A stretch of DNA of 64,000 nt, from assembly GCF_000384155.1 (NCBI RefSeq), contig NZ_KB913031.1, forward strand, positions 62,001 through 126,000, written 5' to 3'. The stretch's first letter is position 1; each line of letters begins with the position of its first letter. The position numbers and the translations under genes are program-made. Under the pieces are notes generated by a model. The model made no database searches. It was not told where the DNA came from and saw only the letters and a program-made list of their open reading frames with translations. Origin of the DNA: Methylophilus sp. 42. GTDB lineage: Bacteria > Pseudomonadota > Gammaproteobacteria > Burkholderiales > Methylophilaceae. Shown here piece by piece: positions 2,793 through 57,051 of this stretch.

Positions 2793-4184
2793 ATGAAACC
2801 AATCTGGATCTTAGACGACGACAAATCCATCCGCTGGGTGTTTGAAAAAGCACTGGCACGCACAGACTTTGATTTCAAAACCTTCTCGTCTCCTGCAGAA
2901 GCACTGAATGCGCTAAACCGCGAACAACCACAAGTGATTGTCAGCGATATTCGCATGCCTAACGGCTCCGGGTTGGACTTTCTGTCAGAGGTAAAACAGC
3001 GCTTCCCGGATATTCCCGTCATTATCATGACCGCTTACTCCGACCTGGAAAGTGCGGTGGCAGCATTTCAGGGTGGCGCCTTTGAATATCTGGCCAAGCC
3101 TTTTGATGTCGACCAGGCGATTGAAATTATCAAACGCGCGGTTGAAGAGAGTATGCGGCAATCGGTTGAAGCCATTGAAGATACCGGCCCATCGCCAGAA
3201 ATTATCGGTCAGGCACCAGCCATGCAAGAGGTGTTCCGCGCCATTGGTCGCTTGAGCCGCTCACATTCAACGGTACTCATCAATGGTGAGTCTGGCAGTG
3301 GTAAAGAGCTGGTCGCCAGCGCGCTGCACAGACATAGCCCACGTGCAGACAAACCATTTATCGCGATTAACACCGCAGCGATCCCTAAAGATTTGCTGGA
3401 ATCCGAATTGTTTGGTCACGAACGTGGTGCGTTTACCGGCGCCGCAGCGGCCAGAAGAGGGCGCTTTGAGCAGGCAGATAACGGCACCTTATTTCTGGAT
3501 GAAATCGGCGACATGCCTGCAGATTTGCAAACGCGCTTATTGCGTGTGTTATCCGATGGCCAGTTCTATCGGGTCGGCGGCCACCAGCCAATCAAGGTCA
3601 ATGTGCGCGTCATTGCGGCCACGCACCAGGATCTGGAAGAGCGCGTTAAACAAGGCCTGTTCCGTGAAGACTTGTTTCACCGTTTAAACGTCATCCGCCT
3701 GCGCCTGCCGCCTTTGCGCGAGCGCAGGGAAGACATCCCCTTGCTGACCAAGCATTTTCTCGCCCACAGCGCTCAACAGCTAGGTGTAGAGCCCAAACAA
3801 TTATCCCAAGCGGCCATCAAATACCTGATGTCAGTGAATTGGAGCGGTAACGTCCGCCAACTGGAAAACGTCTGTCACTGGCTCACCGTCATGGCACCTG
3901 GGCAGAACGTAGACGTGAATGATCTACCGCCAGAACTGAAAGAGGACACCGGCAAGCATAATACAGGCGGCTCCTGGCAAGAAGCATTGGCACAAGAAGT
4001 CACCGATGCACTCAACCGCGGGGAGACCAATATTCTCGACGCCAAAACCAAGGAATTTGAACGCATTCTTATCACGCGCGCTTTGGCTCATACTGATGGC
4101 CGCCGCATTGAAGCAGCCAATCAGTTAGGCATGGGTCGCAATACGCTGACGCGTAAGATTCAAGAGCTCGGGATTGATGACTAA
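2793..4184 (+). CDS. glnG: Nitrogen-regulation response regulator NtrC (sigma-54 activator)
   Basis: This 463-residue protein carries three domains. The receiver (1-120) has Asp52 in VSDIRMP and the acidic cluster DDD at 8-10. The AAA+ sigma-54 activation domain (about 140-380) has Walker A GESGSGKE, the sigma-54 contact loop GAFTGA and Walker B LFLDEIGD. The Fis-type helix-turn-helix is at the end (AANQLGMGRNTLTRKIQEL). Phosphorylated NtrC would activate glnA and other nitrogen genes from upstream sites. Its stop codon abuts the stop of the convergent gene with no intervening base, leaving no room for a separate terminator. Confidence 0.97.
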   Translation: MKPIWILDDDKSIRWVFEKALARTDFDFKTFSSPAEALNALNREQPQVIVSDIRMPNGSGLDFLSEVKQRFPDIPVIIMTAYSDLESAVAAFQGGAFEYLAKPFDVDQAIEIIKRAVEESMRQSVEAIEDTGPSPEIIGQAPAMQEVFRAIGRLSRSHSTVLINGESGSGKELVASALHRHSPRADKPFIAINTAAIPKDLLESELFGHERGAFTGAAAARRGRFEQADNGTLFLDEIGDMPADLQTRLLRVLSDGQFYRVGGHQPIKVNVRVIAATHQDLEERVKQGLFREDLFHRLNVIRLRLPPLRERREDIPLLTKHFLAHSAQQLGVEPKQLSQAAIKYLMSVNWSGNVRQLENVCHWLTVMAPGQNVDVNDLPPELKEDTGKHNTGGSWQEALAQEVTDALNRGETNILDAKTKEFERILITRALAHTDGRRIEAANQLGMGRNTLTRKIQELGIDD

Positions 4185-11775: not shown

Positions 11776-12262
11776 CCTTTTCGCCTGTAGGCGAGTCACT
11801 TTCTGATGCTTGCCCCTCAGAAAGTAACCAAAGAGGAGGGCACCCAGCCATCACGGCCTTGCGGCTCCCTTGCGTTGCTCAACAAAGTGGGCGTCCATCG
11901 AAACTCGCCCTAGCGGCTTGCACAACCCGCAAGCCCCCACTTAGTCTCCGCTACTCAGCGTGATGGAATGGGATTCATCTCGCCAAACACACATTGTAGA
12001 AATGTGGATAGTTCAAAAACCAGATTCTTTTATTAAAATGGCGCTCTCTTGGTGTTCGGGGTCCCCATCTGCCGCGCCGAGCAACGCAGGGTTGGCGGGG
12101 GTCTTCGGCAAGCAACTGTTTGAGCTCCGTAGGAGCGAGTTTTTGATTGCCGCCCGACAAGCCGAGTAGCACAGGAAACAAGCGGAAGTTGGGGTGCACT
12201 TTCTTTTGGTTACTTGTTCTTTGGGCAAGCAAAGAAAAGTAACTCGCCAAAAAGGCGAAAAG
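11776..12262 (+). repeat. Mosaic hairpin repeat, copy 1
   Basis: First of three dispersed copies. Left end: small hairpin TCGCC-TGTA-GGCGA (11781-11794), then ACTTTCTGA/TCAGAAAGT (11798-11825) around loop TGCTTGCCCC. Right end, inverted relative to the left: GTTACTT/AAGTAAC with inner TTCTTT/AAAGAA (12209-12243) and TCGCC/GGCGA (12244-12258). Inside, GGCTTGC-ACAACCC-GCAAGCC (11915-11935) is bracketed by ACAAAGTGGG/CCCACTTAGT, and GCTCC-GTA-GGAGC lies at 12124-12136. Shared internal boxes include GGTTCAAAAACCAGATTC, CCCATCTGCCGCGCCGAG and AAGCGGAAGTTGGGG. Short open frames inside are not conserved between copies. Confidence 0.85.
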
Positions 12263-24413: not shown

Positions 24414-24854
24414 TCTTTTTCGCCTCTCGGCGAGTCACTTTCTGATGCTTGCCCCTCAGAAAGTAACCAAAGAGGAGGGCACCCAGCCATCACGGCTTGA
24501 CGGCTTCCTTGCGTTGCTCGGCGTGATGGGATGGGACTTATCTCGCCAAACTTACAGCATAGAAGTTTGAACGGTTCAAAAACCAGATTCTTTTGTTACA
24601 TCGGCCAAACGACGGCACTCGTAGGTTTTCGGGGTCCCCATCTGCCGCGCCGAGTAGCGCAGGCAAAATAAGGAGAAAGGGAACGACTGTCTGAATCCCG
24701 CAGTAGCTCACGTTGTGTGTGAGCTACCAGGTTGAGTTTCGTGACCGCTTATTTTGACGAGCAACGCAGGGAACAAGCGGAAGTTGGGGTGCATTTCTTT
24801 TGGTTACTTATTCTTTGTGCAAGCAAAGAAAAGTAACTCGCCAAGAGGCGAAAG
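24414..24854 (+). repeat. Mosaic hairpin repeat, copy 2
   Basis: Second copy, in a convergent gap. The left end is identical to copy 3 through the double hairpin: TCGCC-TCTC-GGCGA (24420-24433) and ACTTTCTGA/TCAGAAAGT (24437-24464). The right end again has GTTACTT/AAGTAAC and TCGCC/GGCGA. It lacks the first internal module. Instead a CAAAATAAG/CTTATTTTG-bounded module (24664-24756) is inserted near the right side, with the hairpin TAGCTCAC-GTTGTGT-GTGAGCTA (24704-24726) and box GAGTTTCGTGACCG. This module is the reverse complement, in layout, of the one in copy 3. Confidence 0.85.
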
Positions 24855-41870: not shown

Positions 41871-43766
41871 CTAATTCAAATGCAAGGCTTTCAAGCGGCG
41901 ATATAAAGTGTTTCTGCTCATGCCTAATTGACGCGCCACTGCAGACACATTGCCCGCCTGCTGTTGCATAGCGACACGAATCGCTTCATCAGACTGTGCT
42001 TTCAAGGTTAATACCGGTTGCAAAACTGTTGCACGCTCGGCCTCAACCGCCATTTCATCGAGAAAGTCGTGCGTCAGATGCTGACGTTCAATCACACCAC
42101 CATCGGCCAGCGCCACCGCTGTGCGCAACACATTATGTAACTGGCGCACATTGCCCGGCCACGGATGCACGGCAAACACGGCCAGCACCTCATCACTCAG
42201 CGTGACTTGTGGTGCCTGTTCAATTTGCAAAATCATCTGAATCAGACGCGACATATCCTGGCGCTGGCGCAACGCAGGCAACTGTACGGTTAAACCATTA
42301 ATGCGGTAATACAAATCACTGCGAAACTCACCCGCGGCCACTTTATCCTTGAGTTTCTGGTTAGTAGCACTGACGAGGGTAAAATTGACCGGAATGGATT
42401 TGCTGGAGCCCAAGGGCGTGACGCTGCGCTCCTGCAATACACGCAGCAACCTGGCCTGTAACGACAAAGGCATATCGCCGATTTCATCCAGAAACAAGGT
42501 ACCGCCATCAGCCTGCTGGATTTTGCCGACATTGCCTTTACGCTTGGCGCCGGTATACGCCCCTTCTTCATAGCCGAACAATTCAGCTTCAATTAATCCT
42601 TCCGGCAAGGCTGCGCAATTGACGGCAATAAAGGGCTGCGCTCTACGCACACTGGCATCATGAATCGCCCTTGAAAACAATTCTTTACCGGCACCGGTTT
42701 CACCTAATATCAATACCGGAATATCACGGTTAAGCACTTGCTTGACCTGGCTGATGGCTAATTTTAATTGCGGATCACCGCTATCCAGCAATTCGAGGCT
42801 AGCCGCTGATTCACGTGGCACAGACTGCACCGGCTTACTGGAAATACCTGTCACCTGCATGCTGGAAGCGCGCGCAAACAGGCGGGCGCCATTGCGCAAG
42901 CGCAATGGGAACAACACCTCGGACGACAAACCCCGCTGCTTGAAAGCCAGCCAGGACTCGTCAAAAATATCTTCAAACGGAATGCGGCGCGCAGACAATA
43001 CATCCTGATCCAGCGGCAGGCCAAACTGGAATTGTCCACTACGGTTAATGGCCTGTAACTGGCCTTGCGCATCAAACAGGGCAACGCCTTCCCACAAGGT
43101 GCCGATGAATTCAGGCCGCACATGAAAATGCACACCAATTTCGCCGTCTGCGGTGGCATGGAACAAGCGGTTTTCCACCATTTGCGCCGCCATTTTGACC
43201 AGCGCCAGCGTGTGCTGCTGCGGCGCATTTAAATCATTAGAGACATCCAGTGTCGCCACCAAATGATTATTGGCGGCAAAAATAGGCACGGCAGAACAGC
43301 TTAACGAATGGTGGTAAGCCATAAAGTGTTCGGCCCCTTGCACGCTGATGGGCAAGCGCTCCACTAAGGCAGTACCAATGGCATTCGTACCGCGGTGCTC
43401 CTCGCTCCAGGAGGCACCTGGCAACAATGAGGCACGGACTTCGTTTTCTTCGACGCCTTCGCCTCTGGTGCGCAAAATCACGCCTTCGCTGTCAGTCAAA
43501 ATCACCAGGCTGCGCGTATGGGCAATTTGCTCGCTGAGTGTGAGTATTTCCGGCTCGGCATGGGTCAGCAATAAACGGTTTTTTTCCAGTCGCTGCGCCA
43601 GCTCCTGTGCCGTAATAATCTGGTCTTCACCTGGTGCCTGTTCATCCACCCCTTTGACCATGCAACGCCGCCAGGAACGCGCAATCGCCTCGGCAATCGC
43701 GCGCTGGTCGTCGCGCATGCCGGGCTGCGGCATTGGAGAAGCGGGCGGGGAATATTTGTTGGGCAT
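41871..43766 (-). CDS. Sigma-54-dependent activator, AcoR-like
   Basis: This 631-residue enhancer-binding protein has a long N-terminal sensory part with a GAF-like domain (about 75-215, TRSLVILTDSEGVILRTRGEG to LVKMAAQMVENRLF) and a PAS-like stretch to about 320. The AAA+ domain follows, with Walker A GETGAGKELF, the sigma-54 loop GAYTGA and LFLDEIGD. A Fis-type helix-turn-helix ends the protein (VSAVARQLGMSRNTLYRRLK). Overall it resembles AcoR, the acetoin-catabolism activator. No acetoin genes are near. Its divergent neighbour is xoxF, which has a perfect sigma-54 promoter, so it is the likely activator of methanol oxidation. Confidence 0.88.
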   Translation of the reverse strand: MPNKYSPPASPMPQPGMRDDQRAIAEAIARSWRRCMVKGVDEQAPGEDQIITAQELAQRLEKNRLLLTHAEPEILTLSEQIAHTRSLVILTDSEGVILRTRGEGVEENEVRASLLPGASWSEEHRGTNAIGTALVERLPISVQGAEHFMAYHHSLSCSAVPIFAANNHLVATLDVSNDLNAPQQHTLALVKMAAQMVENRLFHATADGEIGVHFHVRPEFIGTLWEGVALFDAQGQLQAINRSGQFQFGLPLDQDVLSARRIPFEDIFDESWLAFKQRGLSSEVLFPLRLRNGARLFARASSMQVTGISSKPVQSVPRESAASLELLDSGDPQLKLAISQVKQVLNRDIPVLILGETGAGKELFSRAIHDASVRRAQPFIAVNCAALPEGLIEAELFGYEEGAYTGAKRKGNVGKIQQADGGTLFLDEIGDMPLSLQARLLRVLQERSVTPLGSSKSIPVNFTLVSATNQKLKDKVAAGEFRSDLYYRINGLTVQLPALRQRQDMSRLIQMILQIEQAPQVTLSDEVLAVFAVHPWPGNVRQLHNVLRTAVALADGGVIERQHLTHDFLDEMAVEAERATVLQPVLTLKAQSDEAIRVAMQQQAGNVSAVARQLGMSRNTLYRRLKALHLN

Positions 43767-44034: not shown

Positions 44035-45903
44035 ATGCAACAACGTATCAAGCTCGCCATCACTGCAATGATGCTAGCCAGCGTGAGCACCAGCGTATTG
44101 GCAAATGCCGAACTGGACGCCATGATGAAAGACGACAACCAGTGGCCGATGGCGCGTAAAGACTACGCAAACCAGGGTTACAGCCGCTTGTCACAAATCA
44201 ACAAAAGCAACGTCAAACAATTGAAACTGGCATGGACATTTGCCACTGGCGTTAACCGCGGCCACGAAGGCGCGCCGCTGGTGATTGGCAATACCATGTA
44301 TATCCATACCGCATTCCCGAATAACGTGTATGCGCTGGACCTGAACGACAACCAGAAAATCCTGTGGTCTTATTTTCCTAAACAGGACCCGGATGTGCAG
44401 TCTGTATTGTGCTGCGATAACGTCAACAAAGGCCTGGGCTACGGTGATGGCAAAATTCTGCTGCAACAGAATAATGGCGTCTTGGTAGCTTTGGACGCTA
44501 AAACCGGCGCCAAATTGTGGGATGTGAAAGTGAATGACCCGAAAACCGGTTCAGCCAATACTAACGTACCGCATGTATTTAAAGACAAAGTGATTACTGG
44601 CTGTTCAGGCGGTGAATTTGGTGTACGTTGCCATATCAGTGCTTACAGCCTAAAAGATGGCAGCCTGATCTGGAAAGCTTACAGCACCGGCTCTGACAGT
44701 GAAGTCATGATAGGCGCAGACTTCAACAAGGAAAATCCGCAGTACAGCGCCCTGTCCTTATATGAAGACGTGAACGGCGGTAACAAAATGGGTGGTTCAT
44801 TCAAGAACTTGGACAAATCCCAATTGAAATTTCCAGAAGCCAACCTGGGTGTACGCACCTGGTTGAAACCGCAGCAACAGAAAGATGGCTGGCAAAATGG
44901 TGGTGGCCCGACCTGGGGCTGGTACTCATACGACCCGAAATTGAACCTGATGTACTACGGCACCGGCAACCCAGGCACCTGGAACCCGGACGTGCGCCCA
45001 GGCGACAATAAATGGTCGATGACGATTTTTGCGCGTGACCTCGATACAGGCATGGCACGCTGGGGCTACCAGATGACGCCGCATGACGAGTGGGATTACG
45101 ATGGCATGAACGAGATCATCTTGTGGGAAGCCAACGGCAAGCAACTGGCCTCACACTTTGACCGTAACGGTTTTGGCTACACCTTTGACCGCACCAACGG
45201 TACCTTGCTGGTAGCGGAAAAAATGCATCCGTTCGTCAACTGGGCGAGCAAGATTGACATGAAAACCGGCATTCCGGTCAAAGACCCCAAATACTCCACA
45301 CACCAGGATTACAACGCTAAAGGTGTATGCCCTTCTGCGTTGGGCGTAAAAGACGAGCAACCAGCGGCTTACTCACCTAAAAACAAAACCTTCTACGTGC
45401 CTTTAAACCACGTGTGCATGACCTACGAACCGGTTGAATCCAAGTATGTCGCTGGTCAACCATGGGTAGGCGCAACCCTGACCATGTTTGCAGGCCCTGA
45501 TGGTGTGATGGGTGGCTTTATGGCCTGGGATGGCCTCAAAGGCAAAGCGCAGTGGTACAACAAAGAGAAATTCTCTGCCTGGGGTGGCGCATTGGTAACG
45601 GCGTCTGACCTGGTGTTCTACGGCACGCTGGATCGCTGGGTGAAAGCACTGGATGCCAAAACCGGTAAAGAACTGTGGAAATTCCAGGTTGGCTCCGGCG
45701 TGGTAGGCAACATGATCACCTATGGTCACAAAGGCAAGCAATACGTAGGCGTATTGTCTGGCATTGGTGGCTGGGCGGGTGTGGCGATGAACCTGGGCCT
45801 GACCAACGATACCGATGGTTTGGGTGCAGCGGGTGGTTACAAAGAGCTGACCAAATACAACGCCGCGCCTGGTGGCGGTGGCATGAACGTATTCAGTTTA
45901 TAA
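44035..45903 (+). CDS. xoxF: Lanthanide-dependent PQQ methanol dehydrogenase XoxF
   Basis: This 622-residue periplasmic enzyme oxidises methanol (and often formaldehyde) with PQQ. It has a signal peptide (to VLA-NAE, about residue 24), eight-bladed propeller repeats, and the adjacent-cysteine pair Cys126-Cys127 (VLCCDN). The active-site motif PHDEWDYDG holds catalytic Asp354 and, two residues on, Asp356, the extra lanthanide ligand that is Ala in calcium-type MxaF. In this family that identifies XoxF; clade 4 would be expected in Methylophilaceae. It has a strong GGAGG box, a sigma-54 promoter and an AcoR-like regulator upstream. A cytochrome gene follows 13 bases later. No mxa or xoxJ genes are present. 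Confidence 0.95.
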   Translation: MQQRIKLAITAMMLASVSTSVLANAELDAMMKDDNQWPMARKDYANQGYSRLSQINKSNVKQLKLAWTFATGVNRGHEGAPLVIGNTMYIHTAFPNNVYALDLNDNQKILWSYFPKQDPDVQSVLCCDNVNKGLGYGDGKILLQQNNGVLVALDAKTGAKLWDVKVNDPKTGSANTNVPHVFKDKVITGCSGGEFGVRCHISAYSLKDGSLIWKAYSTGSDSEVMIGADFNKENPQYSALSLYEDVNGGNKMGGSFKNLDKSQLKFPEANLGVRTWLKPQQQKDGWQNGGGPTWGWYSYDPKLNLMYYGTGNPGTWNPDVRPGDNKWSMTIFARDLDTGMARWGYQMTPHDEWDYDGMNEIILWEANGKQLASHFDRNGFGYTFDRTNGTLLVAEKMHPFVNWASKIDMKTGIPVKDPKYSTHQDYNAKGVCPSALGVKDEQPAAYSPKNKTFYVPLNHVCMTYEPVESKYVAGQPWVGATLTMFAGPDGVMGGFMAWDGLKGKAQWYNKEKFSAWGGALVTASDLVFYGTLDRWVKALDAKTGKELWKFQVGSGVVGNMITYGHKGKQYVGVLSGIGGWAGVAMNLGLTNDTDGLGAAGGYKELTKYNAAPGGGGMNVFSL

Positions 45904-47688: not shown

Positions 47689-48243
47689 TTCTTTTTCGCC
47701 TCTCGGCGAGTCACTTTCTGATGCTTGCCCCTCAGAAAGTAACCAAAGAGGAGGGCACCCAGCCATCACGGCCTTCGGCTTCCTTGCGTTGCTCAACAAA
47801 ATAAGCCGGTCACGAAACTCATCCTAGCGGGCTGCACACTACGCAGCCCACCGCGGGATTCGAACAGTCGCTCCCTCTACTCTTATTTTGTCTCCGCTAC
47901 TCAGCGTGATGGAATGGGATTTGTCTCATCTAACTTGCATTGATTTAGTTCGGATGGTTCAAAAACCAGATTCTTTTTTCTTCAATTCGCTAATGGTTGC
48001 AGTCGCATGGTGTTCGGGGCCCCCATCTGCCGCGCCGAGCAACGCAGGGTTGGCGGGAGTCTTCGGCCATCGGCTGTCCGAGTTCCGCAACAAGCCACGC
48101 TCTGTGTGGCTTGTCAGGGCGAGTTTCGATGGACGCCCGGCAAGCCGAGTAGCGCAGGAATTAAGCGGAAGTTGGGGTGTCTTGTTCTTTGCCTTCTTTC
48201 TTATGGACAAGCATAAGAAAGAAGGTCGCCGTAAAGGCGAAAT
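47689..48243 (+). repeat. Mosaic hairpin repeat, copy 3 (longest)
   Basis: Third copy, again in a convergent gap. Left end as copy 2 (hairpins at 47696-47709 and 47713-47740). Right end carries a new stem, CTTCTTTCTTA/TAAGAAAGAAG (48193-48224), around TGGACAAGCA, the same loop in reverse, then TCGCC/GGCGA. Module 1 is bounded by a perfect ACAAAATAAG/CTTATTTTGT pair (47796-47805 and 47882-47891) around GGGCTGC-ACACTAC-GCAGCCC (47829-47849). Module 2 holds ACAAGCCAC-GCTCTGT-GTGGCTTGT (48090-48114) followed by GAGTTTCGATGGACG. Open frames across it are not conserved between copies. Confidence 0.87.
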
Positions 48244-56977: not shown

Positions 56978-57051
56978 TGGAGCGGCTGACGGGAATCGAA
57001 CCCGCGTATCAAGCTTGGGAAGCTGGCGTTCTACCATTGAACTACAGCCGC
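56978..57051 (-). tRNA. tRNA-Gly (anticodon CCC)
   Basis: The minus strand reads GCGGCTG ... CAGCCGC-T-CCA, a perfect 7-bp acceptor stem with U73 and encoded CCA, 74 nt in all. The D arm is GTTC-AATGGTA-GAAC, the anticodon loop is TTCCCAA (anticodon CCC), and the T arm is GCGGG-TTCGAAT-CCCGT. The anticodon stem CCAGC/GCTTG contains one C-U mismatch (position 28-42). A perfect TATAAT box (57066-57071) stands about 15 bases before the 5' end. The integrated element begins beside that 5' end. Confidence 0.95.

Follow-up and report, generated by a model that had tools for sequence, protein, structure and literature searches.

Half-elements of ~240 nt, whose fold is kept by compensatory change, occur as outward-facing pairs in the window (the whole 64,000-nucleotide stretch of Methylophilus sp. 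42 DNA that was analysed), and in relatives such pairs enclose short genes of low GC content, which vary from genome to genome at a single site. The half-elements are probably the ends of gene cassettes that carry no transposase and are recognized in their folded state; the link between the conserved single-strand fold and cassette ends is drawn from comparison.

Elements in the window and the genome

A sequence-only reading of the window had described four hairpins with unrelated but perfectly paired stems and a GNNNTGT loop, each followed by a conserved box, GAGTTTCG. All four were found again at the same coordinates and on the same strands, and GAGTTTCG follows each of them. The observation holds but is part of something larger that was overlooked: the P3 hairpin makes up a single stem of a ~100-nt module, which itself belongs to a much larger folded half-element of ~240 nt, and the unit is the outward-facing pair of half-elements. 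The four hairpins belong to three elements of the window, A, B and C (Table 1). The minus-strand hairpin of element A is present as described but sits in a truncated module that lacks CTGTYYGA.

Table 1. Positions of the elements and their parts in the window
Feature	Position	Strand	Remarks
Element C, outward-facing half-element pair	47694..48242	.	Between MFS transporter gene and xth (convergent); G010, a congener, carries different modules in an element at this site
Left half-element of C, end type 2	47694..47974	-	
Right half-element of C, end type 3	47959..48242	+	
P3 hairpin GGGCTGC-GTAGTGT-GCAGCCC (element C)	47829..47849	-	Pairs counted
P3 hairpin ACAAGCCAC-GCTCTGT-GTGGCTTGT (element C)	48090..48114	+	
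Hairpin module H of C, class I	47785..47897	-	Outer stem CAAAATAAG/CTTATTTTG
Hairpin module H of C, class II	48044..48156	+	P1 CGGCCATCG/CGATGGACG
End domain E of C	48147..48242	+	S1/S2 pseudoknot candidate and terminal hairpin CGCC/GGCG
Element B	24418..24853	.	Left half without H module, right half complete
P3 hairpin TAGCTCAC-GTTGTGT-GTGAGCTA (element B)	24704..24726	+	
Hairpin module H of element B, class I	24657..24769	+	
Element A	11779..12260	.	Left H truncated; right H short form (no P3, GTA caps P2)
P3 hairpin GGCTTGC-GGGTTGT-GCAAGCC (element A)	11915..11935	-	Truncated module

In total, 29 elements and one lone end were identified in the genome (2.97 Mb, one contig). It contains 85 copies of GAGTTTCG, with 19 inverted pairs at a spacing of 303–312 nt and one at 375 nt. 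The terminal hairpin pattern TCGCCN{2,6}GGCGAAA gave 68 matches, versus one for the reversed pattern; nearly all are inverted pairs spaced ~430–630 nt, between which cargo would not fit, and a search of this genome for a widely spaced pair of these ends found none. Near the lone end, at position 2421994, the genes have ordinary GC contents, and no second half-element was found before the next complete element. When target duplications were sought at the 29 elements with outward shifts of 0–11 nt, the best shift gave 2 of 29 with at least 4 bp, whereas shuffled controls gave a mean of 1.7 and a maximum of 4. Because no target duplication was found, the element ends are placed only approximately. 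At seven of these loci (L013, L016, L020, L021, L026, L031 and L033), a motif like AAGGTNATTCTTTAG or its complement was seen by eye to recur ~30 nt outside the element; it may be the leftover of a further end or reflect a target preference.

Elsewhere in the window, a different inverted repeat of 82 nt (3469–3550 and 42436–42517; 74% complementary) and a gene for an XoxF-like methanol dehydrogenase (44035–45903, by eye from the translation) were noted. The segment 56001–64000, with a GC content of 0.39–0.41 as compared with 0.46–0.54 before it and a tRNA-Gly gene at 56978–57051, is possibly an island.

Fold of the module and the half-element

On the GAGTTTCG strand, the module is ordered P0, P1, CTGTYYGA, P2, GC, P3 with its loop, YAGG, GAGTTT, P1′ and P0′. 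The sequence taken earlier for a separate box is in fact the 3′ side of the internal loop together with the start of helix P1′. Modules were parsed by anchoring on the internal loop and GAGTTT, independently of stem and loop; 126 were parsed, one with a 24-nt P3 was left out, and the pattern read from four hairpins generalizes, with pairing and loop kept, to the remaining 125 distinct modules, which come from this genome, its congeners and two further genera of the same family. P3 has 23 different 9-nt arms in these modules, and 1068 of 1125 cells (95%) form Watson-Crick pairs, as compared with a mean of 57% and a maximum of 64% after whole-arm shuffling. The stems are thus paired, as had been noted, but are not unrelated, their variation being compensatory change. 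The internal loop CTGTYYGA/GAGTTT and the P3 loop are conserved, the latter with G at position 1 (124 of 125), T at position 5 (123) and T at position 7 (124); position 6, previously given as G, is G in only 93 modules, T in 17 and A in 15, so that the loop reads GNNNTDT.

The x-q pair of P2 is G-C in 88 modules, A-T in 35 and other in 2, and P1 contains tandem G·A in class I (69 modules) but is Watson-Crick paired in class II (56 modules). In 39 diverse modules, including those of other families, double changes were found in 10 of 13 pairs and 94.5% of the cells are paired, versus at most 37.7% when the partner was slid by 1–3 columns; RNAalifold recovers the same hairpin unprompted. At the base of P3, A·C stands in 65 modules, G·T in 49 and A-T in 11; G-C does not occur, which looks like retention of a wobble shape. 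At P3 positions 1–9, G·T mispairs outnumber A·C mispairs 47:1 in the 125 modules and 64:2 in 96 half-elements mostly from other families, counts that take in related copies and thus represent fewer independent events. Because G·T rather than A·C occurs on one strand, a single strand of the module seems to be favoured and read. The compensatory stems, the conserved loops and this bias agree with the earlier proposal of a site read for its shape, and the P3 hairpin module may be a protein-binding RNA. Two loci of one relative (L096 and L097, G021) carry chimeric modules in which class I and class II halves are joined in the same odd 3′ context, GTTGATAACTAAGACTGC, and in which P0/P1 are unable to pair.

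The complete half-element consists of an outer helix, a long variable P0, P1 (often with tandem G·A), the internal loop, P2 and P3, followed by a 3′ domain that holds one or two pseudoknot candidates with covarying arms. Inspection by eye showed that S1 changes together with its partner across S2 within the genus (TGCAC/GTGCA, TGCCC/GGGCA and TGTC/GACA) and is TGCTC/GAGCA in two divergent members. The 96 half-elements, less two containing N, were reduced to 47 representatives, of which 36 have S2; S1 is at least 5 bp long in 24 of these 36, versus 309 of 1204 (26%) combinations with another element's loop. The PK2 candidate (TAGC/GCTA, TTGC/GCAA, CAGC/GCTG, CTGC/GCAG and others, across GCCGG/CCGGC or GTCGG/CCGAC) was found in 62 of 96 half-elements with nine kinds of 4-mer, in a test that itself demands a complementary 4-mer and has no shuffled control. 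P0 arms score 17.3 with their own partners versus 9.6 with those of other elements, and in 47% of 49 representatives no other partner scores better than the own one. The outer helix was recognized by eye and gave a weak score (8.3 versus 6.9). The ends, typed with loose motifs, were mixed in 74 of 89 cases, like in 6 and 5, and unclear in 4. Rfam gave no match to a half-element in the window at the gathering threshold and none above it in relaxed searches of 7 and 10 loci; at L156, the stretch 1577–1684 overlaps a half-element and resembles c-di-GMP-I-GGC, with a score below the threshold (25.4 of 59 bits, E 0.07).

Distribution, enclosed genes and exchange of modules

A covariance model of the module, with at most 19 candidates scored per genome, matched 23 of 300 genomes of the order (this one included; three matches are weak), representing 11 of 135 genera. 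In a sample of the class, 2 of 369 genomes matched, namely this genome and one with a weak score (31.5 bits). A short form, in which a small cap, often GNA, takes the place of P3, was found in 20 of 300 genomes, and the reversed pattern in none among the matches listed; GNA caps are very stable in DNA. Plasmid and phage collections gave no match, and 4 stretches in IMG/VR matched. At least 80 named loci, a non-random sample among the matches listed that consists mostly of metagenome-assembled genomes, belong mainly to Gallionella, Sideroxydans, Sulfuricella, Thiobacillus and other Nitrosomonadales; odd labels among them (Rhizobium, Melainabacteria) are assembled bins.

Neighbouring half-elements located by BLAST in the 80 named loci listed are arranged −+ in 50 cases and −−, ++ and +− in one each, so that 50 of 53 are outward-facing; 31 of the 80 loci show one half-element only, many of them at the locus edge. 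Some pairs are as tight as those of the present genome, and many in Gallionellaceae and allied groups enclose usually one gene. We compiled 29 cassettes, comprising 25 named loci whose halves are separated by >400 nt, together with four stretches picked from the short-form scan, with bounds set by hand. Their halves lie 0.64–5.7 kb apart (the 5.7-kb case, L190, may not be a single cassette), the enclosed DNA is lower in GC content than the whole locus in all 29, and 24 contain one ORF of at least 70 amino acids. A hairpin of the kind GTGGGCAC-NNN-GTGCCCAC was seen by eye just inside the left half-element at L384, L391, L393 and L394.

Pfam searches of 30 of the 39 cargo ORFs placed 11 above and 19 below the curated cut-off. 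The matches comprise RelA_SpoT, KilA-N, HEPN, GmrSD/HNH, P63C, CBS, 8xMP, two DUFs, HTH and a marginal LprI. None of the 30 proteins matched a transposase or integrase family in Pfam; because 19 have no family above the cut-off, a recombinase could possibly be hidden among them. PADLOC, run on ten cargo proteins, matched PDC-S33 (3e-104) and BstA (1.5e-19) strongly and NsnA weakly; two further matches are marginal, and the other five proteins gave none. A few cargo genes are therefore defence-like.

Different genes were found at the same site downstream of lnt. In one genus, whose family (Gallionellaceae) was inferred from named loci at the same site, 31 of 34 genomes contain this gene, and half-elements are present in 6 of the 30 loci read, enclosing five different genes (a RelA/SpoT-like gene twice). 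Both halves are visible at L384 and L391, as well as at the named loci L171, L189 and L248, while the right half of L394 lies outside the stretch. The other 24 loci gave no half-element at a BLAST E-value of 1e-6, one of them with 43 nt in view. Empty sites extend from lnt as far as a GIY-YIG gene, and their precise limits are blurred by other repeats there. A single locus of the 30 read at mltA is occupied.

Within Methylophilus, both flanks of 25 of the 29 elements match an element-bearing locus of G010 (28 elements), with one end placed by length for a few. Among 18 orthologous pairs, 16 have at least one half with a changed stem form, class or end type, as judged from module labels assigned by regular expressions, in which 'none' may be a missed module. 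These pairs were the G010 and G002 copies most like the query, leaving out L009/L292, which matches on one flank only; two elements are inverted, and two keep their modules and ends. In the gap between the MFS gene and xth, G009 apparently retains only a terminal hairpin, which suggests element loss. The left flank of L314 (G010:C1:247200-251800) corresponds to the right flank of L024 and its right flank to that of L020 of the present genome, which represents a chromosomal rearrangement through two elements. No movement was seen between this genome and G010, two close congeners in which the elements act as fixed sites. In this lineage, most elements are thus old sites that stay in place and recombine among themselves.

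Explanations and comparison with known systems

In the cassette-end explanation, two half-elements in head-to-head arrangement, each with its 3′ side facing outward, would bound a cassette, and a factor encoded elsewhere would recognize them as a single strand in its folded state, either as ssDNA or as an outward RNA. Homologous recombination between copies would swap modules and cargo, and the cassettes of the present genome would be empty and mostly fixed in place. A farther-reaching proposal, which we put forward tentatively and consider rather doubtful, is that enzyme-free cassettes of one or two genes, with outward folded ends read single-stranded by a trans-acting enzyme, would constitute a new class of gene mobility. 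In its boldest form, each end would give rise to an outward RNA with the folded part as a scaffold and a 3′ extension corresponding to flanking host DNA; the extension would guide a nuclease to an empty site, and the cassette would home by recombination.

It is unlikely that the elements are structured noncoding RNAs or mRNA 3′-end elements that were multiplied by recombination and enclose genes incidentally. The fold and the strand bias suit an RNA, the tight pseudoknot candidates favour one, and the 29 copies of this genome lie between convergent genes in 16 cases, tandem genes in 12 and divergent genes in 1, according to home-made ORF calls and without a computed background. Elsewhere, however, half-elements show little orientation bias to their neighbours (same strand as the upstream gene in 45, opposite in 31 and none in 1 of 77), which leaves a strict 3′-UTR role unsupported there, and such RNAs fail to predict the outward pairs, the low-GC single genes and the pattern at lnt.

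Still less probable is that a DDE transposase acting on terminal inverted repeats mobilizes the elements as a conventional non-autonomous transposon (MITE, TIME or mobile insertion cassette), with the fold as a by-product. Inverted ends, gene-free and gene-bearing forms, and presence or absence at one site would all be expected of it, but the ends vary in sequence while the fold is kept and one strand is favoured. The missing target duplications and widely spaced end pairs in this genome, and the missing transposase matches among the 30 cargo proteins, also argue against it. Palindromes are able to self-correct and the elements recombine often, so functionless palindromes kept perfect by replication template switching were considered; they are highly improbable, as they leave the conserved loops, the bias of G·T over A·C and the pairing of the pseudoknot-candidate arms unexplained. 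REP/BIME-like repeats mobilized by a Y1 (RAYT) transposase would likewise be intergenic, high in copy number, hairpin-forming and mosaic, but RAYT mobilization was rejected as extremely improbable, since, of the 22 genomes of the genus, 10 have a Y1 domain match (9 of them above the cut-off), and none of the copy-rich genomes G003, G004, G008, G010 and G017 gave one.

Cassette ends recognized as folds would, if real, give betaproteobacteria another means of sharing genes besides integrons and transposons, some of the cargo being defence-like. They would also account for a class of intergenic repeats for which no description was found, and their defined fold can be tested strand by strand. The literature search, with subscription journals mostly outside its reach, found no description of these elements, and the available part of PMC8632094 contains no mention of betaproteobacteria, Methylo-, Gallionella or Burkholderia. 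The elements appear to be new in that attC sites, REPs and transposons that duplicate their target are each contradicted by a feature tested here, and in view of the literature searched; this is not proof of a mechanism.

Neisseria NIMEs and pneumococcal BOX elements are, like the present elements, intergenic mosaic repeat units, and are not known to have gene cassettes or a comparable fold. Mobile insertion cassettes are also units without a transposase and with inverted ends, and occur both empty and with genes. REPs, which are 20–50 nt long, most often with GTAG, and associated with TnpAREP (PMC8266576), share with the present elements the intergenic high-copy palindromes, the inverse pairs and the recognition of a single strand (by TnpAREP on the REP side). 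The half-elements differ in their ~240-nt length and in a distribution that does not require RAYT. TIMEs similarly are transposase-less units with inverted ends, as in the 29 pairs of this genome, and have empty and gene-bearing forms. Their ends are 38-bp conserved inverted repeats with 5–6 bp duplications (PMC4133298), whereas the present ends are folded and variable in sequence, and no target duplication was found. The earlier comparison with attC holds insofar as relatives carry the present folds around gene cassettes. Integron cassettes carry small accessory genes and have a boundary site read by its single-strand shape (PMC2727003), and the two systems are alike in their accessory-gene cassettes, in a single-strand shape with little sequence conservation and in strand selectivity. 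The comparison fails in that attC boxes (R″/R′, RYYYAAC...GTTRRRY at 40–200 nt spacing) were found in 0 of 96 half-elements and no cargo protein of the 30 matched an integrase. Integron cassettes form direct arrays, whereas the present half-elements, ~240 nt long and with pseudoknot candidates, are inverted and face outward in 50 of 53 neighbouring pairs.
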